Source: a virus. From it: a DNA stretch of 31,486 nucleotides. Location: the IMG/VR virus record IMGVR_UViG_3300043411_000993, positions 1 to 31,486 of that record; one strand, given 5' to 3'. Positions 3,742 to 25,838 of the stretch are shown piece by piece (position 1 is the first letter of the stretch; each line of letters begins with the position of its first letter). The notes under the pieces were generated by a model, which was not told where the DNA came from, did no database searches, and saw nothing but the letters and a program-made list of their open reading frames with translations. Position numbers and translations under genes: made by a program.

Positions 3742-4149
3742 TTAAGGTTTAGTGGCGCATTTTGGTCTAAAGTCAGTTTTATCTAAGTTGCTTTTTCCTA
3801 TATTACAGGATTCACAAAGCATCTGAAGATTATTGAAATCAAGCTCAAGCGACCTATCTACTGAGCGAGGTATTATATGATCTACATGAAAGCGGCCTTT
3901 TGTTTCGCCACACGCCATACAAATCTTACCATAATGAGCTACTACCTTGAATCGTAACCTTAACCACGCCTCAGACTTATAAAAAGATAACTCTACTTTA
4001 ACATCATGAGTCCTTTTCTTTTTATTAAACTTAAACGCGGTGTCCTTACAGTTCTTACTACAAAGGCCTTTCTTGTGAGCTTTAATTGCTACACTTAAAA
4101 TAATAGGTTTGCAGCATGATTTACAGATAAAGTGTTCTAACAAAGCCAT
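3742..4149 (-). CDS. HNH endonuclease
   Basis: A 135-residue protein with a C-terminal HNH nuclease domain: CMAC (77-80), HVDHIIPRS (88-96), FNNLQMLC (105-112) and CESC (112-115), giving the zinc knuckles plus the His-Asn catalytic set. The N-terminal 35 residues hold a second Cys cluster (CKSCC, CSKNC), likely a zinc-ribbon DNA-binding part. Free-standing HNH enzymes in phages serve as homing nucleases or packaging-associated nickases. Here it heads the leftward operon, far from the terminase, so a homing or accessory role is likelier. It is the first gene after the probable promoter at 4175-4201. Confidence 0.85.
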   Translation of the reverse strand: MALLEHFICKSCCKPIILSVAIKAHKKGLCSKNCKDTAFKFNKKKRTHDVKVELSFYKSEAWLRLRFKVVAHYGKICMACGETKGRFHVDHIIPRSVDRSLELDFNNLQMLCESCNIGKSNLDKTDFRPKCATKP

Positions 4150-4174
4150 ATGTGTTTTTCCTTAATTGTTCATA

Positions 4175-4201
4175 ATTATACGTTAAGATATGGAACCGCA
4201 A
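4175..4201 (-). promoter_or_regulatory. Probable promoter of the leftward accessory operon
   Basis: On the minus strand a perfect TATAAT lies at 4180-4175, with TTGCGG at 4201-4196 upstream (15-base spacer; AATTGC would give 17). The HNH gene starts 25 bases downstream of the -10 box. The -10 match and position are seen; activity is inferred. Confidence 0.5.
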
Positions 4202-4202
4202 T

Positions 4203-4753
4203 TCTTCCTACTGACTGACTAAGGCAGGCTTGGTAAGCCACTTTAGTAATCAGGTTCGAATGTATTTCTTGAATGTCTTTATCTTTATTTGATTGAACTC
4301 TTCGTTACCTGACTTGTTGTAACGGCCAAAGCTAAGCGAATACTTTGGTTCATCTACTTTTAAATAGATGCGTCTTGGTGGAGAACTGAATCAAACTCCC
4401 GGATTCCTAAGCATCATGCTCCGGCTCCTAGAGACTCTCTCAAATAAATTTAAAACAATTGCACAGCCGACGGCTCTATTTCTTAGATAGTTTAGGTTGC
4501 GGTTCCGAGTTGATTCAAACCAATGCCAGCACTGCTACTGACGTCCCTACTAATTATAATGCCGCCTATTGGGTGTTATTAACATAATCCCGTATCGTGT
4601 TTTACGACTTAACGATAAATTTTCGGCTTAATTTTAGTATTGAGTTTTCTGGCCGATGATGCCACAGTGACTTCAATACTTTCTTTTAAGCAATTAAAGT
4701 TACTAGCCCAGATTTTGAATAGACGCAATGTCTAAACGGAGTCTGGGCTTTTT
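4203..4753 (+). ncRNA. Candidate large structured phage RNA ending in an intrinsic terminator
   Basis: About 550 bases with no credible gene on either strand but dense complementary stems. Seen stems: 4211-4214/4250-4253, 4218-4224/4241-4247 and 4227-4231/4235-4239 (one long nested arm); 4303-4308/4319-4324; 4326-4331/4343-4348; 4351-4356/4365-4370; 4465-4468/4472-4475; 4574-4577/4581-4584 inside 4571-4573/4589-4591; 4593-4598/4612-4617; 4636-4643/4673-4680 enclosing 4650-4653/4661-4664. It ends with the rightward terminator at 4705-4753. A G-U pair in the first arm and the terminator's U tract both indicate plus-strand RNA. Size, phage context and terminator resemble the large ornate phage RNAs (GOLLD, ROOL), but I cannot confirm membership; it may be a new family. 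The 5' end is approximate. Confidence 0.6.
4705..4753 (+). terminator. Rho-independent terminator of the structured RNA
   Basis: AGCCCAGA (4705-4712) pairs perfectly with TCTGGGCT (4742-4749). A small inner AGAC/GTCT hairpin sits between them, and the right arm runs straight into a five-T run. It faces right and follows no protein gene, so it must end transcription of the non-coding stretch before it. Confidence 0.8.
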
Positions 4754-4795
4754 AGTTAAAGAGAGTTCGTGTTTTTGTTCTTTGCTGTAATAAAC

Positions 4796-4824
4796 AAAAA
4801 GGGGCACAGCCGAAGCCACACCCC
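4796..4824 (-). terminator. Possible leftward intrinsic terminator
   Basis: On the minus strand GGGG and CCCC arms enclose a TTCG-capped inner stem that pairs fully only with G-U pairs, followed by TTTTT. The wobble pairs show it is better as a leftward RNA than a rightward one. No leftward gene lies just upstream, so it may block antisense or read-through transcription toward the structured RNA. Confidence 0.5.
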
Positions 4825-5017
4825 TCTTCGAAGGATAAACAGCACCACGCTGTCGTCTGGTAAAGAAATATTAACATTGTTTACTTAAATTATTAAATAA
4901 CAAACATTAAAAATAGTGCTTTAAATCTCATAAATAATATTATTAAACCTTTTTCAAGCAGTCGTGTTTTATGCAATAGAATCGATTGGCTTTCATGATG
5001 TAAATACTAGGATGTGG
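4825..5017. other. AT-rich intergenic region before the early operon
   Basis: Together with the neighbouring terminators this gives over 300 gene-free bases up to 5079. It contains a short ACAGC/GCTGT hairpin (4839-4853), very AT-rich sequence (4866-4955) and a weak rightward promoter-like pair, TTGGCT at 4986 and TAGGAT at 5008 with a 16-base spacer. The open frames present are only a few codons long and unconvincing. Confidence 0.4.
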
Positions 5018-5043
5018 CGGCGAGTAGATAGACCTGCTTGCCG
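5018..5043 (+). promoter_or_regulatory. Strong hairpin in the 5' leader of the early operon
   Basis: CGGCGAGTAG (5018-5027) pairs along all ten bases with CTGCTTGCCG (5034-5043), counting two G-U pairs, around a six-base loop. It lies about 37 bases before the first early gene, immediately upstream of the ACAGAT leader. No T run follows, so it is not a terminator. The G-U pairs exist only in the rightward transcript. RNA stabilisation or protein binding are possible roles. Confidence 0.5.
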
Positions 5044-5052
5044 TCATTCTAA

Positions 5053-5082
5053 AAACAGATAACGAAATGGATACAGATTATG
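5053..5082 (+). promoter_or_regulatory. ACAGAT leader element, copy 1
   Basis: AAACAGATAACGAAA followed a few bases later by ACAGATTATG, whose ATG is the start of the 5080 gene. Near-identical leaders precede the leftward genes starting at 10470 and 10894. Confidence 0.65.
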
Positions 5083-5586
5083 GAAAACAAAACGCTATTT
5101 TCATTAGCTCTAAATCTAGAGCGACTACTGATAGAAAATGAAGGCGAACTAAACGAAGAGATTGAAGCACTAATTAAAGTGACTGAAGGCGATCTAGCGT
5201 CAAAAGTTGATAGTTATTATTACATTATCGAGCGCATGAAAAATGCCGCTGCGTACTACAAATCTGAAGCTGAAAAGCTAAATAACATAAAGAAGTCCTG
5301 TGAGCTTCTAGAGGACCGGTTAAAAACGCGTCTTAAAGAGACTATGCAATTCACTAATCAAAAAGAGATCGTGGGCTTAAGGCACCGTTTTGTGCTTACT
5401 GATAGCCAACCCAAGCTTGTCATTACTGACGAGAGTAAGATTCCTAACGAATATAAGATTATTAAAACAGAGATTGATAAAGCTGAGCTAAGGATTGCGC
5501 TAGTGCATGGTGTAAAAACAGAAGGCGCGAGATTAGAGCAATCCCACGCACTCCGCAGTTTTAAAATCAATCCCTCTTCAAAATAA
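5080..5586 (+). CDS. Siphovirus Gp157-family protein
   Basis: A 168-residue protein matching the Gp157 family found in early regions of many tailed phages. It has a helical, coiled-coil-like N-terminal half (YYYIIERMKNAAAYYKSEAEKL, about 46-68, then LEDRLKTRLKETMQ) and a C-terminal half with IPNEYKIIKTEIDKAELR. The family was linked to phage resistance in streptococci. It usually sits next to single-strand annealing and SSB genes, as here, suggesting a recombination or replication role. First gene of the rightward early operon, behind a hairpin and the ACAGAT leader. Confidence 0.8.
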   Translation: MENKTLFSLALNLERLLIENEGELNEEIEALIKVTEGDLASKVDSYYYIIERMKNAAAYYKSEAEKLNNIKKSCELLEDRLKTRLKETMQFTNQKEIVGLRHRFVLTDSQPKLVITDESKIPNEYKIIKTEIDKAELRIALVHGVKTEGARLEQSHALRSFKINPSSK

Positions 5587-7003: not shown

Positions 7004-7158
7004 AAAGCGGCTCTGGCTATGGCTCTGGCTATGGCGATGGCTCTGGCGGTGGCTATGGCTCTGGCTCTGGCTCTGGCGGTGGCGATGGCTATGGCTATGG
7101 CGATGGTGATGGCTATGGCTATGGCTATGGCTCTGGCTATGGCGATGGTGATGGTTAA
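6991..7158 (+). CDS. Gly-rich GY/GS/GD hexamer-repeat protein
   Basis: The frame starting at ATG 6991 reads METIKSGSGYGSGYGDG and continues as alternating Gly with Tyr, Ser or Asp for 55 residues. It stops at 7158, 23 bases before SSB. I prefer this frame to the Ala/Met-rich one because it starts inside the previous gene's end and stops just before the SSB ribosome site, AAGGAG. A weak GAGAG is present upstream. Alternatively the repeat is reached by a -1 shift from the previous gene, giving a C-terminal GYG tail; no classical slippery heptamer is visible. Such low-complexity Gly/Tyr chains are flexible and could self-associate. Confidence 0.6.
   Translation: METIKSGSGYGSGYGDGSGGGYGSGSGSGGGDGYGYGDGDGYGYGYGSGYGDGDG
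7015..7155. repeat. GGCTAT/GGCTCT/GGCGAT hexamer repeat tract
   Basis: Roughly 140 bases made of six-base units of the form GGC or GGT followed by TAT, TCT, GAT or GGT. Interrupted repeats of this kind change length easily by slippage or recombination; changes in whole units keep the Gly-rich frame. Confidence 0.9.
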
Positions 7159-8868: not shown

Positions 8869-9768
8869 ATGAAAACAATATTATTTTTATTACTAGCGTT
8901 AAGTGCACAAGCATCTGAACATGACGACATTGTGAAGGCCATGAAAAAGCCAAAACTAAAGAATGAAGTCATGACCAAATCATCCAAGGCTATCACTGTA
9001 CCTCTAAATTTACTTATTCCTGATGAATTAAGAAAAGAAATCGACAAAGAGAAAGTAAAGCCATCACCAACTCCTCATTCATCTTTATTTGATAGAATAT
9101 CGGACAATTACTATAAAAAAGCTTACGCCTTTGCGCCAGCACCTAAACCTATTCCTATGCCTACTTTCGTTAGTCTAAAATCTAACGACACGCCTATTAT
9201 AAACCAATGGAATGGGACCTGTACAGCACATGCGTCAATGGCGGCAGCTGAGAATATTCTAAAGGGTAAACTAAACTTAAGTGAAAGGCATCACTGGGAT
9301 TATTACAAACAATATTCCTCTCACGCCTCTGTAGCGTCATTTCAAAATCAGGCAGTTACTACTCAAGAGAATTGGCCAAACAACATAGAAGCTAAACCAT
9401 CAACACTACCGCTTAAAGCTAAACTTAAGCAAGTTGAGTATATCGGTACTGACTTTGAAAAGCTTAAATCACACCTAGCTAAAGGATTACCCTCTATAGT
9501 AGCAATGGCGGCACCAAATGACCTGATGAGCTGCTTACCTGTAGTAAGAGAGGCATCAGGTATCGCGCCTAATGCCGGGCATGCTATGGCTGTTGTAGGG
9601 TATGGCCTTGATAACTCACTTCGAGGCAAAGGCTACTTCATTGTCAAAAACTCTTGGGGATCAAATTGTCATGCACAAGGGTATGCATCAATTCCATTCT
9701 CTGCATGTCAGGAGCCCGGTGGTTATTGCATCTTTTGGAACTTTAAAGAGATTGAGGTATTAAACTAA
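8869..9768 (+). CDS. Secreted papain-like (C1-type) cysteine protease
   Basis: A 299-residue protein. A signal peptide (MKTILFLLLALSAQA, likely cut after residue 15) is followed by a propeptide-like stretch to about 100, then a C1-fold domain. The full catalytic set is visible: Gln113 and Cys118 in INQWNGTCTAHAS, His238 in NAGHAMAVVGYG, and Asn261 in YFIVKNSWG. The Gln-to-Cys distance is one residue shorter than in papain. Export suggests periplasmic or extracellular action, for example in lysis, superinfection control or degradation of a host surface protein. It sits oddly between RusA-like and coiled-coil genes in the early operon and has no good ribosome site. Confidence 0.85.
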   Translation: MKTILFLLLALSAQASEHDDIVKAMKKPKLKNEVMTKSSKAITVPLNLLIPDELRKEIDKEKVKPSPTPHSSLFDRISDNYYKKAYAFAPAPKPIPMPTFVSLKSNDTPIINQWNGTCTAHASMAAAENILKGKLNLSERHHWDYYKQYSSHASVASFQNQAVTTQENWPNNIEAKPSTLPLKAKLKQVEYIGTDFEKLKSHLAKGLPSIVAMAAPNDLMSCLPVVREASGIAPNAGHAMAVVGYGLDNSLRGKGYFIVKNSWGSNCHAQGYASIPFSACQEPGGYCIFWNFKEIEVLN

Positions 9769-10057: not shown

Positions 10058-10137
10058 TGGCAAGTAGCTCAGTGGCTAGAGCTTTCGTAACTATCCTAGG
10101 TAATTACGCGTCGTGGGTTCGACTCCCACCTTGCCAG
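10058..10137 (+). tRNA. tRNA-like gene with abnormal anticodon arm
   Basis: A cloverleaf is clear except in one arm. Acceptor TGGCAAG/CTTGCCA (7 of 7), D stem GCTC/GAGC, T arm GTGGG-TTCGACT-CCCAC and discriminator G; CCA is not encoded. The anticodon stem would be CGTAA/TTACG (10086-10090/10104-10108), but it encloses 13 bases instead of 7, and three bases instead of one precede it. Pairing TA with TA across a C-A mismatch leaves a 7-base loop, TCCTAGG, with CTA in the anticodon position but C instead of U33. The isotype cannot be assigned. It may be a tRNA with an insertion, a decayed tRNA or a tRNA mimic. Confidence 0.6.
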
Positions 10138-10158
10138 CCTAAAAAACAACACAACTTT

Positions 10159-11098: not shown

Positions 11099-11464
11099 AT
11101 GATTAAAACAGGTAGGCCAATGGGCCAAGAATCGTTAACTACTCTTAACAGAAAAGCTTTTAGAAAACGAATGGCCGACATGGGCCGTGATCTAAAGCTA
11201 GATCAAAAGATAAAATTAGACCTAGAACGGCTTAATGATCTTCAAAAAATGAGTGGAACAGTAGCCGAAGAGTTAGACATACTTAAAAGCAAGTTTACCG
11301 TTTACTTCCAGCTTATGCCCTACCTACTGCCAAAGCTTCAAGCTATCGAGATTAAGGACGACAATAACGTTAAAAAGCTAAGTGATGAAGAAGCTAATAC
11401 TAAGCTAGCACTAATGCTTAATGATACTATCAGCGCAGCAAAGCTAGCACTCGAGCAAAAATGA
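11099..11464 (+). CDS. Putative terminase small subunit
   Basis: A 121-residue charged helical protein directly upstream of, and overlapping by four bases, the large terminase ATPase. Small subunits recognise the packaging site in phage DNA and load the large subunit. Position and size (100-180 is usual) fit; the sequence itself is not distinctive. The N-terminus (RKAFRKRMADMGRD) is basic and could contact DNA, and the middle (KLDLERLNDLQ) looks coiled-coil. Start is ATG 11099 or the internal ATG 11120 (GTAGG upstream); neither has an ideal ribosome site. Confidence 0.5.
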   Translation: MIKTGRPMGQESLTTLNRKAFRKRMADMGRDLKLDQKIKLDLERLNDLQKMSGTVAEELDILKSKFTVYFQLMPYLLPKLQAIEIKDDNNVKKLSDEEANTKLALMLNDTISAAKLALEQK

Positions 11465-13233
11465 GCAAGGAGCTAATAGCTACACTATACAAGCGTAGTC
11501 TCTACCACTTTTGTAAGTATGGCCTAAAAATGAAAGACATAAATTGGGAGACTCATGGTGGGATGCTTTCGACGCTACAAAACGATTCATTACGGAAGCT
11601 TATTGTTATGCCACGGGGGTCGCTTAAATGCGTAGATTTAAAAAGTATGATTACATTACCCAATGGAACTCAAAAAGAAGCTCAATTTTTAAACATTGGC
11701 GATTATGTTAAAACATGGTCAACAAACGGTTTTAGTGAAAACAAAATTATTGGTAAAAAAATAAACAAATCTCAAGACATGAGGGCTGTAAAATTCAGGT
11801 CTGGTAAAACAATTTATGTCTCACATAATCATCCATTGCTAACTATCAAGGGCTTTAAAAAAGTAGACGAAATAAAAAAAGGTGAACGCATAGGAAGTTG
11901 GGCTGGTAATTTTATTCAGGGAGAAATTAACTATTCTCATGAAGAAATGTTTCTGCTTGGCGCGCTGATTGGAGACGGTAGTTTATCAGGTGGTAATGCA
12001 AGCATTTATTTACACCACGAAAATTTACGAAAAGAAGTAATTAGGTGCGCTAATTTTATGGGTTTTGAGTGTGTTAAATATAACACAGAAAAAAGACACA
12101 CCTATGGCTTAAGTGGTGGCGTCAGAGAGTGGTTAGATAAATTCAAACTAAGAAACACAACATCTCACTCTAAGTTTATTCCACAGGAGCTATTTAATGC
12201 GACAATAAGCGCTAAGAGGTCATTTGTTGCTGGTTATTTAAGTTGTGATGGTTGTTTTAGTAAAAAGTCTGGTAAAATGAGTTTTGCTACAGTTAGCGAA
12301 GACATAGCAAAACAAATGCAGCAATTACTGCTTACTATCGGTGTGTACTCAAAACACAATTGGAAAGAGTACGATTATGGAAACATAAAACCACGTTTTT
12401 ACGACTGCTCTATTGTAGATCCAATAAGCATTAAAAACTTATTACTATGTCCGTTTGTAGTAAAAACTAATAATGGCTTTATACCATCTCAGGATGGTTA
12501 TTGGAGAAGTGTGCCTAAGAATTGGCGCGAAGTAGCTAAACCTTTTAGATCAAGAGTTAATGGTTACAGAATAGACAATAAATACGACACAAGTTATACA
12601 AAATTTAAAAAGTTTAGTGATGAAATTGGTATGAGCTGGGCTTGCTCAGATGAGATTGTATGGGATGAGATAACAGATGTTTCTAATTACATCGGTGTGA
12701 GTATTGATTTTGAAGTAGAAAATGACCACACGTTTTTAGTTGATGGAATAGTTACACACAATTCGAGTTTAGGCGTTACAGGTTATGCAATTTGGCTACT
12801 AGCACGCAATCCAAACGAAAGAATATTAATTGACTCAGAAGTGTACGAAAACAGTAAAAACTTCCTTAGAGAAATAAAAGCGTACATGTTGGATCCAGAA
12901 CTCACAGAAATATTTGGTGAGTTTAAAGGTGCCTTGTGGGGGGAAAGCGAGCTAACCATCAAGCAGCGCACGCATCCATACAAAGAAGCAAGCATAACGG
13001 CAGGCGGCGTGAACACTGTTAAGGTTGGACAGCACTATAGTTGCATTGTGTCAGATGACTTAAATAGTGGAAATAATTCAGGAACTTCAGAGGCTAGGGC
13101 AAAGGTATTGCAGCATTACAGGCTTAACAATGCTATCTTGGATCCGGGTGGAACTTACGTTGTTATCGGCACTAGATATGCCGCAGATGACGTGATTGGT
13201 AGTATATTACAAAACGAAATAGGGATAAAATAA
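11461..13233 (+). CDS. terL: Terminase large subunit, ATPase half, with intein at the P-loop
   Basis: 590 residues before splicing. Residues 1-56 and 435-590 form the packaging ATPase; 57-434 are an intein. Once the intein is removed the Walker A reads MPRGSLK-SSLG; Walker B is CIVSDD (528-533) and the coupling motif is VVIGTR (567-572). The frame ends after GSILQNEIGIK, exactly where the nuclease domain should begin. That domain is encoded separately at 15563-16369, so the terminase is split. Mature length here is 212 residues; with the 268-residue partner about 480, normal for TerL. The motor pumps DNA into the prohead and needs the P-loop, so splicing is required for function. Confidence 0.9.
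   Translation: MSKELIATLYKRSLYHFCKYGLKMKDINWETHGGMLSTLQNDSLRKLIVMPRGSLKCVDLKSMITLPNGTQKEAQFLNIGDYVKTWSTNGFSENKIIGKKINKSQDMRAVKFRSGKTIYVSHNHPLLTIKGFKKVDEIKKGERIGSWAGNFIQGEINYSHEEMFLLGALIGDGSLSGGNASIYLHHENLRKEVIRCANFMGFECVKYNTEKRHTYGLSGGVREWLDKFKLRNTTSHSKFIPQELFNATISAKRSFVAGYLSCDGCFSKKSGKMSFATVSEDIAKQMQQLLLTIGVYSKHNWKEYDYGNIKPRFYDCSIVDPISIKNLLLCPFVVKTNNGFIPSQDGYWRSVPKNWREVAKPFRSRVNGYRIDNKYDTSYTKFKKFSDEIGMSWACSDEIVWDEITDVSNYIGVSIDFEVENDHTFLVDGIVTHNSSLGVTGYAIWLLARNPNERILIDSEVYENSKNFLREIKAYMLDPELTEIFGEFKGALWGESELTIKQRTHPYKEASITAGGVNTVKVGQHYSCIVSDDLNSGNNSGTSEARAKVLQHYRLNNAILDPGGTYVVIGTRYAADDVIGSILQNEIGIK
11629..12762 (+). mobile_element. LAGLIDADG intein in the terminase P-loop
   Basis: A 378-residue intein (precursor residues 57-434). 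The N-terminus is Cys57 (CVDLKSMITL, block A), block B is SHNHPLL (121-127), the C-terminal blocks are DHTFLVDG and VTHN, and the next residue is Ser435. Between the splicing halves lies a homing endonuclease with two LAGLIDADG motifs, LLGALIGDGSL (165-175, Asp172) and FVAGYLSCDGCF (255-266, Asp263), both with their acidic residue, so it is probably active. The insertion point lies between Lys and Ser of the Walker A motif, a typical conserved homing site. Confidence 0.95.
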
Positions 13234-14028
13234 ATGAAAACATTAGTTTCAGTATGTGTGACTCACCACTTAAACATAAATGACGAATACTTAAAGCACG
13301 CGCTTGCTGGGTTATCAGCGCAAAAGACCGAGTTTGCGTTTGAAGTAATAGTAATAACAAGCGCAGAAAGTGTTAATGTTGATGTGCTTAGTTACTCAAG
13401 AGATGGCGCACAGTTTAAGATTGTGCATGACACGAAGCTTAACAACGCAACTGTAAAGTTTAAGCACTTTATGCGCATTAAAAGCCCTGACTCTAAGTTT
13501 ATACTTATGCACTCGGATGACGTAGTGATGGCCGGGCCTACGCTACAAAACTTTGTGTTAGCGCAAGCAAGCTTAACAACGCTTATTATCCAAAACCCTT
13601 TATGCAATGGGGATGTACCAAATAAGTATATTACCCCAGTGTTCATAAATCTTAACAATTCACCTTGTGTGATACCGCAACATTTAGATCACGATTGGCT
13701 AACAAGCGACAAAATGGCAGCACTAGCAGCTTGGCGACCTAGCATGATGTTACTATGCCCTTTCGACTGGCTAGCGTTTTACTGTACGTTTATGCCAATA
13801 GAAGTACTGGAAAAAGTGGGTGAACTTGACGAAAGACTAGATTGCAAAAATAATGATGTAGACTTTTGTTTTAGGGCTGGTGCGCTTAACATAGCAAGTA
13901 TGGTTAACTTTGGTGCACTAGCTATTCACTTCGGTAGCAAAACCTTGCAGTACACTAAAAGTAAAGAAGACGAAGCAAAAGCCGATGCAGTGTTTACAGA
14001 AAAGTTAAGAGAAGCTAACATAATTTAA
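13234..14028 (+). CDS. GT2-type glycosyltransferase
   Basis: A 264-residue glycosyltransferase A-fold protein: VSVCVTHHLNINDEYLKHALAGL at the start, FEVIVITSAES, and HSDD (93-96) in the place of the DxD metal site. GELDERLDCKNNDVDFCFRAG near the C-terminus matches the acceptor-side ED motif of GT2 enzymes. It transfers a sugar from a nucleotide donor, target unknown; phage examples modify host O-antigen, capsid or DNA. It starts directly after the ATPase-half stop, with AGGG as ribosome site, and is the first gene of the cassette that divides the terminase. Confidence 0.8.
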   Translation: MKTLVSVCVTHHLNINDEYLKHALAGLSAQKTEFAFEVIVITSAESVNVDVLSYSRDGAQFKIVHDTKLNNATVKFKHFMRIKSPDSKFILMHSDDVVMAGPTLQNFVLAQASLTTLIIQNPLCNGDVPNKYITPVFINLNNSPCVIPQHLDHDWLTSDKMAALAAWRPSMMLLCPFDWLAFYCTFMPIEVLEKVGELDERLDCKNNDVDFCFRAGALNIASMVNFGALAIHFGSKTLQYTKSKEDEAKADAVFTEKLREANII

Positions 14029-14043
14029 AACTCGAGGTTACAC

Positions 14044-14355
14044 ATGAGATCAGAAGACATTTACGCATTTTACTCCGAAACAGTAGTAATGGGCCCAAGC
14101 TTGAGCGTTACTATTGCGCCTATCCCCGGACAACTTAGTTGCTCAATCAAATACGGCAATGGTGGAACACTATTTTTTATGAACGACAGCGCAATAACAG
14201 GCGGTTGTTCATACGCTACAGTAAACAAATATCCTTTCGCATCTACTGAGGTATTTAACTTTAACGGTTCAGGTTACTGCAAACTTGGCGTTGGCGGCGC
14301 GACAACTACTTTCTTTATTAATCGTGGTTTATCAATGGGAAGTACTCAACTATGA
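14044..14355 (+). CDS. Hypothetical beta-rich, possibly virion-associated protein
   Basis: A 103-residue protein rich in Gly, Ser, Thr and aromatic residues, with alternating beta-strand-like composition (LSVTIAPIPGQLSCSIKYGNGGTLFF). Similar small proteins lie next to fibre genes in other phages. GAGG precedes ATG 14044, and its end overlaps the next gene by four bases. Likely a decoration or fibre-attachment protein; not certain. Confidence 0.5.
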   Translation: MRSEDIYAFYSETVVMGPSLSVTIAPIPGQLSCSIKYGNGGTLFFMNDSAITGGCSYATVNKYPFASTEVFNFNGSGYCKLGVGGATTTFFINRGLSMGSTQL

Positions 14356-15092
14356 GAGCCTTTGGATATGCTCTCGGTAGTGGTGTAACAGGAGGTAACC
14401 CTCTTGTCTCTTTCGGTACTCCGGCAGATACAGCAATAGCAACATGGCGAACTAACGCAGCGACAACACTACAAGGTAACAATGCTTACATTACTGCGGC
14501 TGGGTTTGTTGGTATCGGTACGGCTGCACCTAATCGCATTATGCATATTGTGGGCACATCAGGTGCAATTGGTATTCAGCTAACCAACACAGCGATTGAA
14601 GCTAACGGATTTCTTATTTATCACGGTGGTGCTGGTGTTAACTCTCTACAAATTTATGAGGAGACGGCAGCTAAAGGCTGGATGCAAATTCAAGGCACTT
14701 CTGGCTTTATTGGTATCGGCGGCGATGCGCTTTCTCCAGTGGTTAATTTGCATATCGATAGAAATAGCGATGCTTACGTTAAGTTCTCAGTAAGTGGAAC
14801 AACTGGCTCAGGCGTAGGCGATGGTTTTAATGTCGGTGTAACAAGCGCTGGTATTGCGCAGCTTATTCAGTATGAGAATCAACCGCTTAATATATTTACA
14901 AATAACACGCTTGCATTAACAGTAAGCGCAGCCGGAGTTTTAACATTTCAAGTTGCGGGTAATGAATCGACTGGTGGCGGCAGTGCTTTACTTGGCGCTA
15001 ACTCGCCGGCATCGACGCTAACAGCACCTTACAAGTGGTTAAAAGTAATACTATCAGACGCATCGGTCGGATACGTTCCGGTTTGGAAATAA
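14352..15092 (+). CDS. Tail-fibre-like protein
   Basis: A 246-residue low-charge beta-rich protein with fibre-type repeats: FVGIGTAAPNRIMHIVGTSGAIGIQL (about 56-81) and FIGIGGDALSPVVNLHIDRNS, a pattern of many phage fibres and long bacterial adhesins that form trimeric beta-helices. The usual C-terminal endosialidase-type chaperone is absent; it ends with VILSDASVGYVPVWK. Probably part of a receptor-binding fibre. Coupled to the gene before it by ATGA. Confidence 0.65.
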   Translation: MRAFGYALGSGVTGGNPLVSFGTPADTAIATWRTNAATTLQGNNAYITAAGFVGIGTAAPNRIMHIVGTSGAIGIQLTNTAIEANGFLIYHGGAGVNSLQIYEETAAKGWMQIQGTSGFIGIGGDALSPVVNLHIDRNSDAYVKFSVSGTTGSGVGDGFNVGVTSAGIAQLIQYENQPLNIFTNNTLALTVSAAGVLTFQVAGNESTGGGSALLGANSPASTLTAPYKWLKVILSDASVGYVPVWK

Positions 15093-15102
15093 AGGGGATT
15101 AT

Positions 15103-15381
15103 ATGGCATTAATATTAAAGCAAACATACAACACAGGTTTTGAAGCTGATTACTTATCGATTCAGCAAATTCAAGTTAACAAAGAAGCTGGAACGGTAGT
15201 TATGACATTTTCAGTGTACAAAGACAAAGCAGCGAGAAACGCGGATAAAATAGCAACTTCTCGTTTTACTGTCAGTGCACCGTTTGAAGCACTTAAAAAC
15301 ACTAAAGATGACGTAACTTTTGGTGCATGTTACACTTACTGTAAAGCATTGCCACAATTCGAAGGTGCAGTAGATGGATAA
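15103..15381 (+). CDS. Hypothetical cassette protein
   Basis: A 92-residue protein with an alternating strand pattern (VNKEAGTVVMTFSVYKDKAARNADKI) and a C-terminal helix-like part. AGGGG precedes ATG 15103. It follows the fibre-like gene and overlaps the next gene by eight bases. Probably virion-related by context. Confidence 0.55.
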   Translation: MALILKQTYNTGFEADYLSIQQIQVNKEAGTVVMTFSVYKDKAARNADKIATSRFTVSAPFEALKNTKDDVTFGACYTYCKALPQFEGAVDG

Positions 15382-15562
15382 AGTAGATTTGAAAATAGAC
15401 CAAAAGCTTGCGCAAGCTATCTTCGATTATTTAGCTACTCAACCCGCTAAAGATGTATTTCATTTCTTAGTTGAGATGAAGCAACTTACAAAGTGTGAGT
15501 GCAATGCGACTCCAAAGGTTGTTCATACTGAATCTGAAATAGCAGAGTTATTTAAAAAATAA
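15374..15562 (+). CDS. Small hypothetical protein
   Basis: A 62-residue helical protein (LDIDQKLAQAIF-like start, CEC near residue 42). Its stop codon is directly followed by the ATG of the terminase nuclease half, so re-initiation probably drives that gene, which has no good ribosome site of its own. Function unknown. Confidence 0.55.
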   Translation: MDKVDLKIDQKLAQAIFDYLATQPAKDVFHFLVEMKQLTKCECNATPKVVHTESEIAELFKK

Positions 15563-16369
15563 ATGTTCTTTGGTTCAACAGTTATTGGAGAGTGGGCTAT
15601 TACTTACGAGAAAGCGATTCGTGATGATGGCTCACTTTTGTTTCCAGATAAACTAAATCACGCATTTTTAGAGAAGCAGCGAAAGATTATGGGTAGTTAT
15701 CTTTTCGCTAATCAGTATTTAAATATTATCGTTCCAGATGAGGAGCGTAAGTTTAGACCTGAGTGGTTTAAGACGTGGCATCAACTACCGAAAGCGTATA
15801 ATACTTTTGCTTTTGTAGACCCAGCTATTGGGCAAAAAGACCATCACGACTACACAGCTATCGTTGTGGTTAGTGTGGATGCAGATAACAATTGGTATAT
15901 CAGGACAGCGAATAGATATCGGATAACTCCTAGTGAGATTGTTAATAAAATATTCGATGTTTGTAATGAGTTTAAGCCGTCTTGCGTAGGGATTGAAGTA
16001 GTCGCATATCAAGAGGCGTTGCTTTATATCCTAGATGAGCAAATGAAGAAGCGTGGAAAGATGTTGCCAGTTAAGGGTATAACTCGCGGTAAACAATCAA
16101 AGAATGCTAGAATTCAAGGTCTAGTACCTATGTTTGAATGGGGTAGAATCTTTCTGAATGACATGCGCTCAGAGTTATGTGAAGAATTGTTAACATTTCC
16201 AAGAGGTGCTCATGACGATTTAAATGACGCACTTGCTAGTTTATTGGAGATAGTAGTGCCACCACAGCATGAAAGTAATGAAATAAAGAAGCCAGCGTCT
16301 CATATGTCGAAAGACTACGAGTCATGGGTGATTCAAGAGATGATAAAGAAACGAAACAACGGAGAATAA
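15563..16369 (+). CDS. terL: Terminase large subunit, nuclease half
   Basis: 268 residues corresponding to the C-terminal part of a large terminase: the linker GEWAITYEKAIRDDGSLLFP, then the RNase H-type nuclease with Asp86 in FVDPAIG, Glu145 in CVGIEVV, and Asp218/Asp219/Asp222 in HDDLNDALA. It cuts concatemeric DNA at the start and end of packaging. No ATPase motifs are present. The first residues fit straight onto the end of the ATPase half (NEIG to GEWAI), so little or nothing is lost between the parts. The two halves must work as separate chains or be rejoined by an unseen mechanism. Confidence 0.88.
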   Translation: MFFGSTVIGEWAITYEKAIRDDGSLLFPDKLNHAFLEKQRKIMGSYLFANQYLNIIVPDEERKFRPEWFKTWHQLPKAYNTFAFVDPAIGQKDHHDYTAIVVVSVDADNNWYIRTANRYRITPSEIVNKIFDVCNEFKPSCVGIEVVAYQEALLYILDEQMKKRGKMLPVKGITRGKQSKNARIQGLVPMFEWGRIFLNDMRSELCEELLTFPRGAHDDLNDALASLLEIVVPPQHESNEIKKPASHMSKDYESWVIQEMIKKRNNGE

Positions 16370-23663: not shown

Positions 23664-25838
23664 ATGAAAAAAAGACCCACTATCTCACTATGTTTAATAG
23701 CAAAGAATGAAGCGCATAATATCAGAGCGCTTTTTGAATCAATCGAAGGTTGTTTTGATGAGGTAATCTTAGTTGATACCGGCTCAACAGATAATACCAA
23801 AGAACTAGCACTATCGTATGGCGCAAAGGTATTTGACTTTACTTGGGTAGATGATTTTGCCGCTGCTAGAAATTACTCATTCGATCAAGCTACTTCTGAC
23901 TATGTGTTTTGGTGCGATTTAGATGATTCATTGCGTAACAAAGAAGCATTTATCAAGTTTAGAGATAACGTGATGGAGGTGGCGGATTACTGGATAGCAA
24001 ACTATCATTACGCTTTTGATTTTCATACTTCGACGCCTCTTTGTACTTTTCCAAGAGAGAGAATAATCAAAAGAGGTAAGGGGTTTAAGTGGAAGTATTT
24101 TGTTCATGAGGGGTTAATGCCTAGTGATGGCGTAGAGCTTAAGCCTCAGATGATTACCACTTGGGACATTGTGCATCGTCGGTCGATCAAGGATGTTGAG
24201 GCGGATAGAACTAGAAACATAACATTGTTTGAAAAGAATAGAGATAAGTTCGATACGAGAATGCTTTACTACTACGGTAAGGAGTTATTCGAAAATAAGC
24301 TTACCAAGGTAGCAATTGTTCCACTAAGTGAGGCATTCCAGAAAGAAGACTTAGCGCCTCATGATAGGGTGTTATGCTTACAATACCTTGTCTATAGCTT
24401 TATGGAAGAGAAGGACTTTAAGAGAGCATTTGAGCTTGCTCAGGTAGGGATTAACTTAGACCCGCATAGAGCTGAGTTTCATGTAGCTATGGGTGATAGT
24501 AAGATTGGATTAGGCGAGATACAAAACGCATTACCATTTTATTATGCAGCTACAGCTTGTAGGCAGAATCATAACTTAGTTTCACGCTTTATCTTTTCAA
24601 ACATTGACGCTTATGGGGCGTATCCATGGAATGCGATTGTTAAGGTACTTGCCAACATGGGGGATATAGAAGCAGCATTGAACGTAGCGAAGCAAACGCA
24701 AGAAAGGTTTCATCATGCTGAGACTGATTTACTTCTTAAAGAACTTACTCAAGCAAGAACTAGCCAAGCTTTCGACGTTTCAATGGCTACTAATTGCGGT
24801 GATATTATTTTCACTTGTTTTGCTAATGCCTATGAGTGGGATGGCGAAATCTACCGTAAGCAAGGGTTGGGTGGTAGTGAGACTGCTGAGATTGAACTTG
24901 CTGAATGGTTTGCTAAACTAACGCCTAGAAAGATTATCATTTTTAATTCAGTCAAGACAGAGAAGCATATAAATGGCGTAATCTATCGACCATTAGAGAT
25001 GCTTAATGATTACTTGAAGCATAACGTACCTTGGATGCATATAGCGTGGAGGCATAACAATAAAATATGTAATGCGATGACAGTAGTGCATTCCCATGAC
25101 CTACAAACTCCGGGAATTGAGAACTATAATATTTTTGAAAAGGTAGCAGTATTAACTCCATGGCATCGAGACTTTATGAACGCTACTCAAGGGGTGCCAT
25201 TTGATAAAATGTGGTTAACAGGTAACGGGATTGTGCCTGAAAGGTTTAACGTCGATAAGAGTAAGAAAGACCCGTATGCGTTTGTGTTTTCAAGTTCACC
25301 TGATAGGGGATTAGACCGAGCGATGCTGGTACTTGATAAGGTACGAGAAGAGTTTCCAGAAATTACCTTACGAGTGTTTTATGGGATTGAGCATTTAGAG
25401 AAGTATGGGCTTAAAGACCTACAAGATAAACTAAAAGCCATGATGAATGAAAGACCATGGGTTACTTACTACGGAAAGACCGAACAAAAGGAAATGATGA
25501 GGCACTTCAAAGAAGTTTCTTATTGTGTCCAGCCATCTAACTTTTTAGAGACGTTTGGAATTTCAGTACTTGAGCAAGTTTGTTCAGGTATTTACCCAAT
25601 ATTTAGACGAATTGGGGGGATTGCTGATACTCTTAAGCCTTTTGTAGACAAGGGAATGGCCTCTTTGGTTGAGGGTGATTGTGTATCGGAAGCAGAGTTT
25701 AGTAATTACATAGAAGAGACAAAGAAAGCGGTAAAAGAACAAAGACATTTACGCGTAATGGTAGACGCAAATGAGCTTTCATGGAAAAATAGAGCGATTG
25801 AGTGGCTAGATGAGTTTAAAAAACTCAAAGGGGAATAG
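23664..25838 (+). CDS. Two-domain glycosyltransferase with TPR-like linker
   Basis: A 724-residue protein. Residues 5-100 are a GT2 catalytic start: ISLCLIAKNEAHNI, VDTGSTDNT (37-45) and DLDD (85-88) as metal site. The middle (about 190-370) has TPR-like helix pairs (KRAFELAQVGINLDPHRAEFHVAMGDSK). The last 350 residues contain a second, GT4-like part: GIVPERFNVDKSKKDPYAFVFSSSPDRGLDRAMLVLDKVREEF and FLETFGISVLEQV with the typical E-x7-E context. ATG 23664 is used rather than TTG 23652. It may glycosylate host surface glycan or virion protein. Confidence 0.82.
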   Translation: MKKRPTISLCLIAKNEAHNIRALFESIEGCFDEVILVDTGSTDNTKELALSYGAKVFDFTWVDDFAAARNYSFDQATSDYVFWCDLDDSLRNKEAFIKFRDNVMEVADYWIANYHYAFDFHTSTPLCTFPRERIIKRGKGFKWKYFVHEGLMPSDGVELKPQMITTWDIVHRRSIKDVEADRTRNITLFEKNRDKFDTRMLYYYGKELFENKLTKVAIVPLSEAFQKEDLAPHDRVLCLQYLVYSFMEEKDFKRAFELAQVGINLDPHRAEFHVAMGDSKIGLGEIQNALPFYYAATACRQNHNLVSRFIFSNIDAYGAYPWNAIVKVLANMGDIEAALNVAKQTQERFHHAETDLLLKELTQARTSQAFDVSMATNCGDIIFTCFANAYEWDGEIYRKQGLGGSETAEIELAEWFAKLTPRKIIIFNSVKTEKHINGVIYRPLEMLNDYLKHNVPWMHIAWRHNNKICNAMTVVHSHDLQTPGIENYNIFEKVAVLTPWHRDFMNATQGVPFDKMWLTGNGIVPERFNVDKSKKDPYAFVFSSSPDRGLDRAMLVLDKVREEFPEITLRVFYGIEHLEKYGLKDLQDKLKAMMNERPWVTYYGKTEQKEMMRHFKEVSYCVQPSNFLETFGISVLEQVCSGIYPIFRRIGGIADTLKPFVDKGMASLVEGDCVSEAEFSNYIEETKKAVKEQRHLRVMVDANELSWKNRAIEWLDEFKKLKGE

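Follow-up and report, generated by a model that had tools for sequence, protein, structure and literature searches.

A near-identical noncoding stretch in two otherwise divergent phage genomes is probably the gene for an undescribed RNA

What occupies a long gene-free gap between two oppositely directed phage operons: an RNA, a DNA site, or a segment without special function? The gap considered here belongs to an uncultivated virus of bacteria (IMGVR_UViG_3300043411_000993, positions 1 to 31,486; the whole of this 31,486-nucleotide stretch is referred to as the window). It spans 4150–5079 and is bounded by a leftward HNH gene (3742–4149, minus strand) and a rightward Gp157/Mu-Gam-like gene (5080–5586, plus strand). 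Nothing credible as a gene lies between the two, which bears out the gene-free stretch between opposite operons described in the original prediction. That prediction saw in the gap a large and ornate structured RNA read from the plus strand. Comparison with a related phage suggests that a conserved 437-base stretch of the gap is probably the gene for an undescribed RNA.

The comparison genome, IMGVR_UViG_3300011338_000730 (G001; 34,173 bases), was the single relative retrieved with the neighbouring Gp157 protein as query, and searches by capsid, portal, Gp157 and TerL proteins led to G001 only. The two phages have most of the window's genes in common, at 27 to 91% amino-acid identity, and the main claim is based on this one genome pair. 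Several features of the wider genome may be recorded here. The large terminase of the window is split into an ATPase part and a nuclease part (11461–13233 and 15563–16369), with several genes separating them (13234–15562); the ATPase part holds an intein with a LAGLIDADG homing domain, and G001 has no such intein. A phage-encoded cysteine protease of the papain-like C1 family, apparently with a signal peptide (8869–9768), has a G001 counterpart at 58% identity, and a D12-class adenine methyltransferase gene carries six perfect 9-nt repeats (LQR repeats) at 2754–2807.

The conserved core of the gap is 437 nt in length (4190–4626) and is 95.3% identical to G001 24921–25363. By comparison, 10,967 aligned coding windows of 437 nt from the same two genomes average 72% identity with a maximum of 84.4%, and aligned stretches other than the core are 64 to 83% identical. 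The similarity has sharp edges, running from ATGGAACCGC to TTTTCGG, and the flanks have no alignable sequence. It should be pointed out that the original prediction did not see this conservation, and that the conservation of 4190–4626 is the feature that exceeds chance. A weaker second intergenic patch at 4871–4947, with 79% identity to G001, probably serves to control the right operon.

The two copies of the core differ by 15 substitutions and one 6-nt insertion. The central part, 4298–4474, is free of substitutions over 177 nt, and the insertion in G001 is next to 4394. For 15 random changes, a longest gap of 177 nt between substitutions has a probability of 0.007, and this unevenness favours selection over mere recency. 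The left edge of the core also carries one arm of a perfect 10-bp inverted repeat, termed P1, in which 4192–4201 pairs with 4497–4506. An edge-anchored repeat of such length is rare in shuffled sequences (P=0.0025); in G001 one of its pairs is lost (4200 A>C).

The core is not protein-coding. There are 6 to 13 stop codons per frame in all six frames, and the substitutions are mostly nonsynonymous in six frames out of six. Two short open reading frames were considered and rejected. The first, 4368–4490 (40 amino acids), is cut by a stop codon within the G001 6-nt insertion, and in the second, 4459–4587 (42 amino acids), all changed codons are nonsynonymous. Thus a conserved protein frame across the gap, which the original prediction regarded as an argument against an RNA, was looked for in the core and is absent.

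Indirect evidence for a transcription unit comes from the terminators. The prediction of an excellent rightward terminator is confirmed by a genome-wide scan, in which the hairpin at 4705–4749, followed by a U-tract (4705–4753 in all, plus strand, −25.1 kcal/mol), is the strongest terminator-like hairpin in the window. The strongest terminator of G001, found by the same kind of scan, is likewise on the plus strand, at 25433–25487. The two lie 79 nt (window) and 70 nt (G001) past the core, have no mutual sequence similarity, and have U-tracts on the plus strand only. A terminator kept in place and strength despite changed sequence speaks for a transcription unit of about 565–573 nt that is read rightward and stops short of the right operon. 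We infer a discrete rightward transcript from 4190 to about 4754 in the window, 565 nt long, with a length of 573 nt in G001. Between core and terminator there is a long plus-strand hairpin (4636–4680) followed by a T-rich run; it cannot be aligned with the G001 sequence, where different hairpins occur at this place. Further to the right, a leftward terminator with a UUCG loop (4799–4826, minus strand) would insulate the window locus from leftward transcription on that side.

Promoters are less informative. No promoter above chance was found on either strand in the promoter scan. At 4150–4190 there is no recognisable plus-strand promoter, and the sequence directly upstream of the core is not conserved. 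A leftward promoter had been proposed for the left end of the gap; the TATAAT is indeed present on the minus strand at about 4173–4178, but it is absent from the promoter scan and has no acceptable −35 sequence. A leftward sigma70-like match within the core (4553–4582, minus strand; TTAATA-18-TATAAT, 10 of 12 positions) is not above chance, and its −10 sequence reads TATAAA in G001.

Secondary structural modelling gives a mixed picture. The stems named in the original prediction are present: 4211–4253 folds alone, and 4636–4680 enclosing 4650–4664 folds strongly. The description of the structure as ornate is not supported, as the stem count is near chance: there are 17 local stems of 5 bp or more, where shuffles give 13.1 (P=0.05), and seven of 6 bp or more, where shuffles give 5.2 (P=0.21). 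The hairpin at 4211–4253 is weaker in G001 on both strands. The region 4190–4760 has a folding energy relative to shuffles of z −3.2 on the plus strand and z −5.2 on the minus strand. Most of the plus-strand signal has its source in 4627–4760, the 3′ hairpin and terminator (z −6.1); the core alone gives z −1.0 in the window and z −0.3 in G001 on the plus strand, and z −3.3 and z −1.95, respectively, on the minus strand. The 15 core substitutions that separate the two sequences include no double-sided compensation, and such folding signal as the core has is weak and on the minus strand. Elsewhere, a scan of the window gives its most stable fold at a tandem array of 23 copies of a 6-nt unit at 7009–7148 (z −6.2 on the plus strand), which has three overlapping open frames, one of them coding for Gly/Ser/Tyr/Asp repeats.

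This raises the question of which strand is transcribed. A G-U pair had been offered as an argument for the plus strand, but the argument fails, as folding energy and pair-preserving substitutions favour the minus strand. The difference in minimum free energy between the strands favours minus (P=0.035). Substitutions at 4297, 4529 and 4530 keep their pairs on the minus strand only (summed preservation P=0.02), and a hairpin at 4525–4542 is kept in both phages on that strand only. The ensemble common to both phages has 97 pairs on the minus strand vs 78 on the plus strand. Purines make up 45% of the core on the plus strand and 54.7% on the minus strand, and the coding strand is purine-rich in 51 of the 53 window genes. 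For the plus-strand assignment of the original prediction, then, the U-tract and terminator agree, whereas folding energy, substitution pattern and purine content lean mildly towards minus. The plus strand is slightly preferred here because the terminator evidence is both comparative and directional; a constant right-hand neighbour also favours it, the core being upstream of the same Gp157 operon in both phages. That this phage lineage has here a noncoding RNA gene of its own, read rightward, is put at a little short of an even chance. The points against it are the lack of a recognisable plus-strand promoter, a core whose plus-strand fold is no better than that of shuffles, and a pyrimidine-rich plus strand.

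The minus-strand signals could also be taken at face value. The core would then specify a functional minus-strand RNA, either a structured leader or a free RNA; its transcription might begin at the promoter-like site 4582–4553 and proceed leftward across the P1 domain and on into the left operon. Better minus-strand folding in both phages, the three pair-preserving substitutions, the retained hairpin at 4525–4542 and a purine-rich minus strand, like that of mRNAs, all speak for such an RNA. So does an intrinsic terminator in G001 at 24607–24635 (L002 4852–4880), which immediately precedes the GGGGGG ribosome site of the leftward replication operon, an arrangement like that of leader-attenuated operons; in G001 the leader could thus act by antitermination. 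The left-hand side of the locus is where the proposal meets difficulty. The window has the HNH gene there after a spacer of 40 nt, and G001 has an O-like/DnaD-like initiator gene and DnaB after about 330 nt that include the terminator. The window has no homologue of the G001 initiator or helicase, and with left genes and spacers entirely unlike, there is no common cis target for a minus-strand leader. In addition, the left edge of the core has no minus-strand terminator, and the strong plus-strand terminators of both genomes are left unexplained. A minus-strand RNA is on balance unlikely, though less so than the remaining alternatives. As a separate observation, the initiator-like gene of G001 (L002 3980–4834) contains an in-frame repeat, DDSRRSTDDSRRS.

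If the strands were irrelevant, the core could act as DNA; a replication origin between the divergent early operons, or a site there at which a protein is loaded, would be examples. The position of the core between these operons, its proximity to replication genes in G001 and its inverted repeats, which can be read on both strands, are consistent with this. No iterons or long direct repeats were found, though, and the core is unchanged in a window that has no homologue of the G001 initiator or helicase. Near identity over 437 nt is also long for binding sites, and the terminators would be unaccounted for. We consider a DNA-level element improbable.

Slightly more improbable still is a recently exchanged or mobile segment without special function, moved lately between the two phages. 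The very sharp edges on both sides and the 95% identity in a 72% background are what such an exchange might leave. Against it, the core occupies the same syntenic place ahead of the Gp157 operon in both phages, neither terminal repeats nor a target duplication are seen, the substitutions are unevenly distributed, and the terminators, which are alike in position, lie outside the segment. Nor was a further copy found in any of the collections searched. No homologue of the core beyond G001 was detected by blastn in 50,697 phage and 72,556 plasmid records, or by exact-word scans of IMG/VR (four DNA words) and GTDB genomes (two words), which miss homologues below about 85–90% identity; the exact-word candidates were re-scored by blastn and nhmmer, and all were chance matches apart from G001. 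About 1,560 genomes of four phyla gave nothing convincing; the best Bdellovibrionota match, 52 nt within a long open frame, was rejected. Four Bdellovibrionota genomes with distant capsid or portal matches have no copy of the core.

A sense and antisense pair, in which a plus-strand transcript ended by the terminator overlaps a minus-strand leader and the two control the early operons or replication, would reconcile the plus-strand terminators with the minus-strand folding signals, but it requires two promoters where none is above chance, and is very unlikely.

How does the candidate rightward RNA gene compare with known RNA families? A scan of the region in both phages with all 4,227 Rfam models (cmscan, at gathering score and at E values up to 10) gave no credible match, including none to GOLLD or HEARO. 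The ROOL model alone (RF03087) had no match at E≤10 in the window or G001, in a search without a positive control (the control genomes were silent). There is no tRNA or tmRNA in the gap; a CCA-like string on the minus strand at about 4377–4402 was rejected as a tRNA by eye. A lone tRNA-Ser with an unusual ACT anticodon call is found at 10058–10139, 5.3 kb from the locus.

ROOL RNAs occur in phages and prophages, are structurally complex and have no known function; they and GOLLD RNAs are large, are often found near tRNA islands and form RNA-only cages (PMC12286853). The locus resembles ROOL in being phage-borne, noncoding and of similar length (565–573 nt, vs 574 positions in the ROOL model). 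It differs in having no match to the model and no adjacent tRNA island. ROOL is further marked by a pseudoknotted fold backed by covariation. GOLLD RNAs, whose function is also unknown, are in many cases longer than 800 nt and have a conserved 3′ part and a variable 5′ part (PMC12286853). The present locus is also a large phage noncoding RNA candidate, but of about 565 nt, and on the plus strand it is the 5′ 437 nt that are conserved and the 3′ 130 nt that vary. The kinship with GOLLD and ROOL suggested in the original prediction thus finds no support, with no Rfam match in either genome and no adjacent tRNA island; beyond size and context, no tested feature of ROOL or GOLLD membership is present. 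The suggestion of a possible new RNA class fares better, and is supported as a possibility by a locus that no Rfam family matches.

A further parallel by description is found in the lytic Vibrio phage ICP1, where RNA-seq demonstrated an abundant noncoding transcript, about 800 nt long, that comes from a gap of about 1 kb without ORFs; this RNA is outside described families and adjoins the lysis cluster (PMC7567579). Both are ORF-less phage gaps with a large RNA outside described families, although here the RNA is inferred and the locus sits between early operons. The window locus also adjoins an HNH endonuclease gene, which recalls HEARO and omega RNAs. There is no Rfam match to these, the HNH gene is small and free-standing, and it is missing beside the core in G001; the linkage was therefore rejected, and the HNH neighbourhood is accidental. 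As a conserved noncoding locus with its own terminator, the candidate has general features of large structured phage noncoding RNAs. The best reading is that it is comparable in kind to ROOL, GOLLD and the ICP1 transcript, and a member of no tested family.

If the rightward RNA gene is accepted, a transcript of about 565 nt (573 nt in G001) would be made as its own unit. The core may be nearly constant since the RNA itself, not a protein, would do the work, both through its fold and through contacts with a partner from host or phage. Action in trans is the least contradicted mode, given that the two phages have wholly different left neighbours and that complementary targets in their own genes or mRNAs include none common to both. 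As to its role in the infected cell, one can only guess at a scaffold, a decoy directed at some host or defence factor, or an RNA-only particle. More tentatively than the rightward gene itself, we propose that the locus may represent a previously undescribed class of large phage RNA, some 565 nt in length, so far seen in this lytic-looking, podophage-like lineage only, held more tightly than capsid or portal genes, and acting in trans on the host or its defence.

Should the locus encode an RNA, it would be the most conserved stretch of both genomes, ahead of the capsid and portal genes, in a virus that measures only about 35 kb. It would be one of few phage RNAs so constrained outside described families, and a compact test case for the function of large phage RNAs. 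The finding also indicates that comparison with one distant cousin can reveal such loci where folding energy alone fails.
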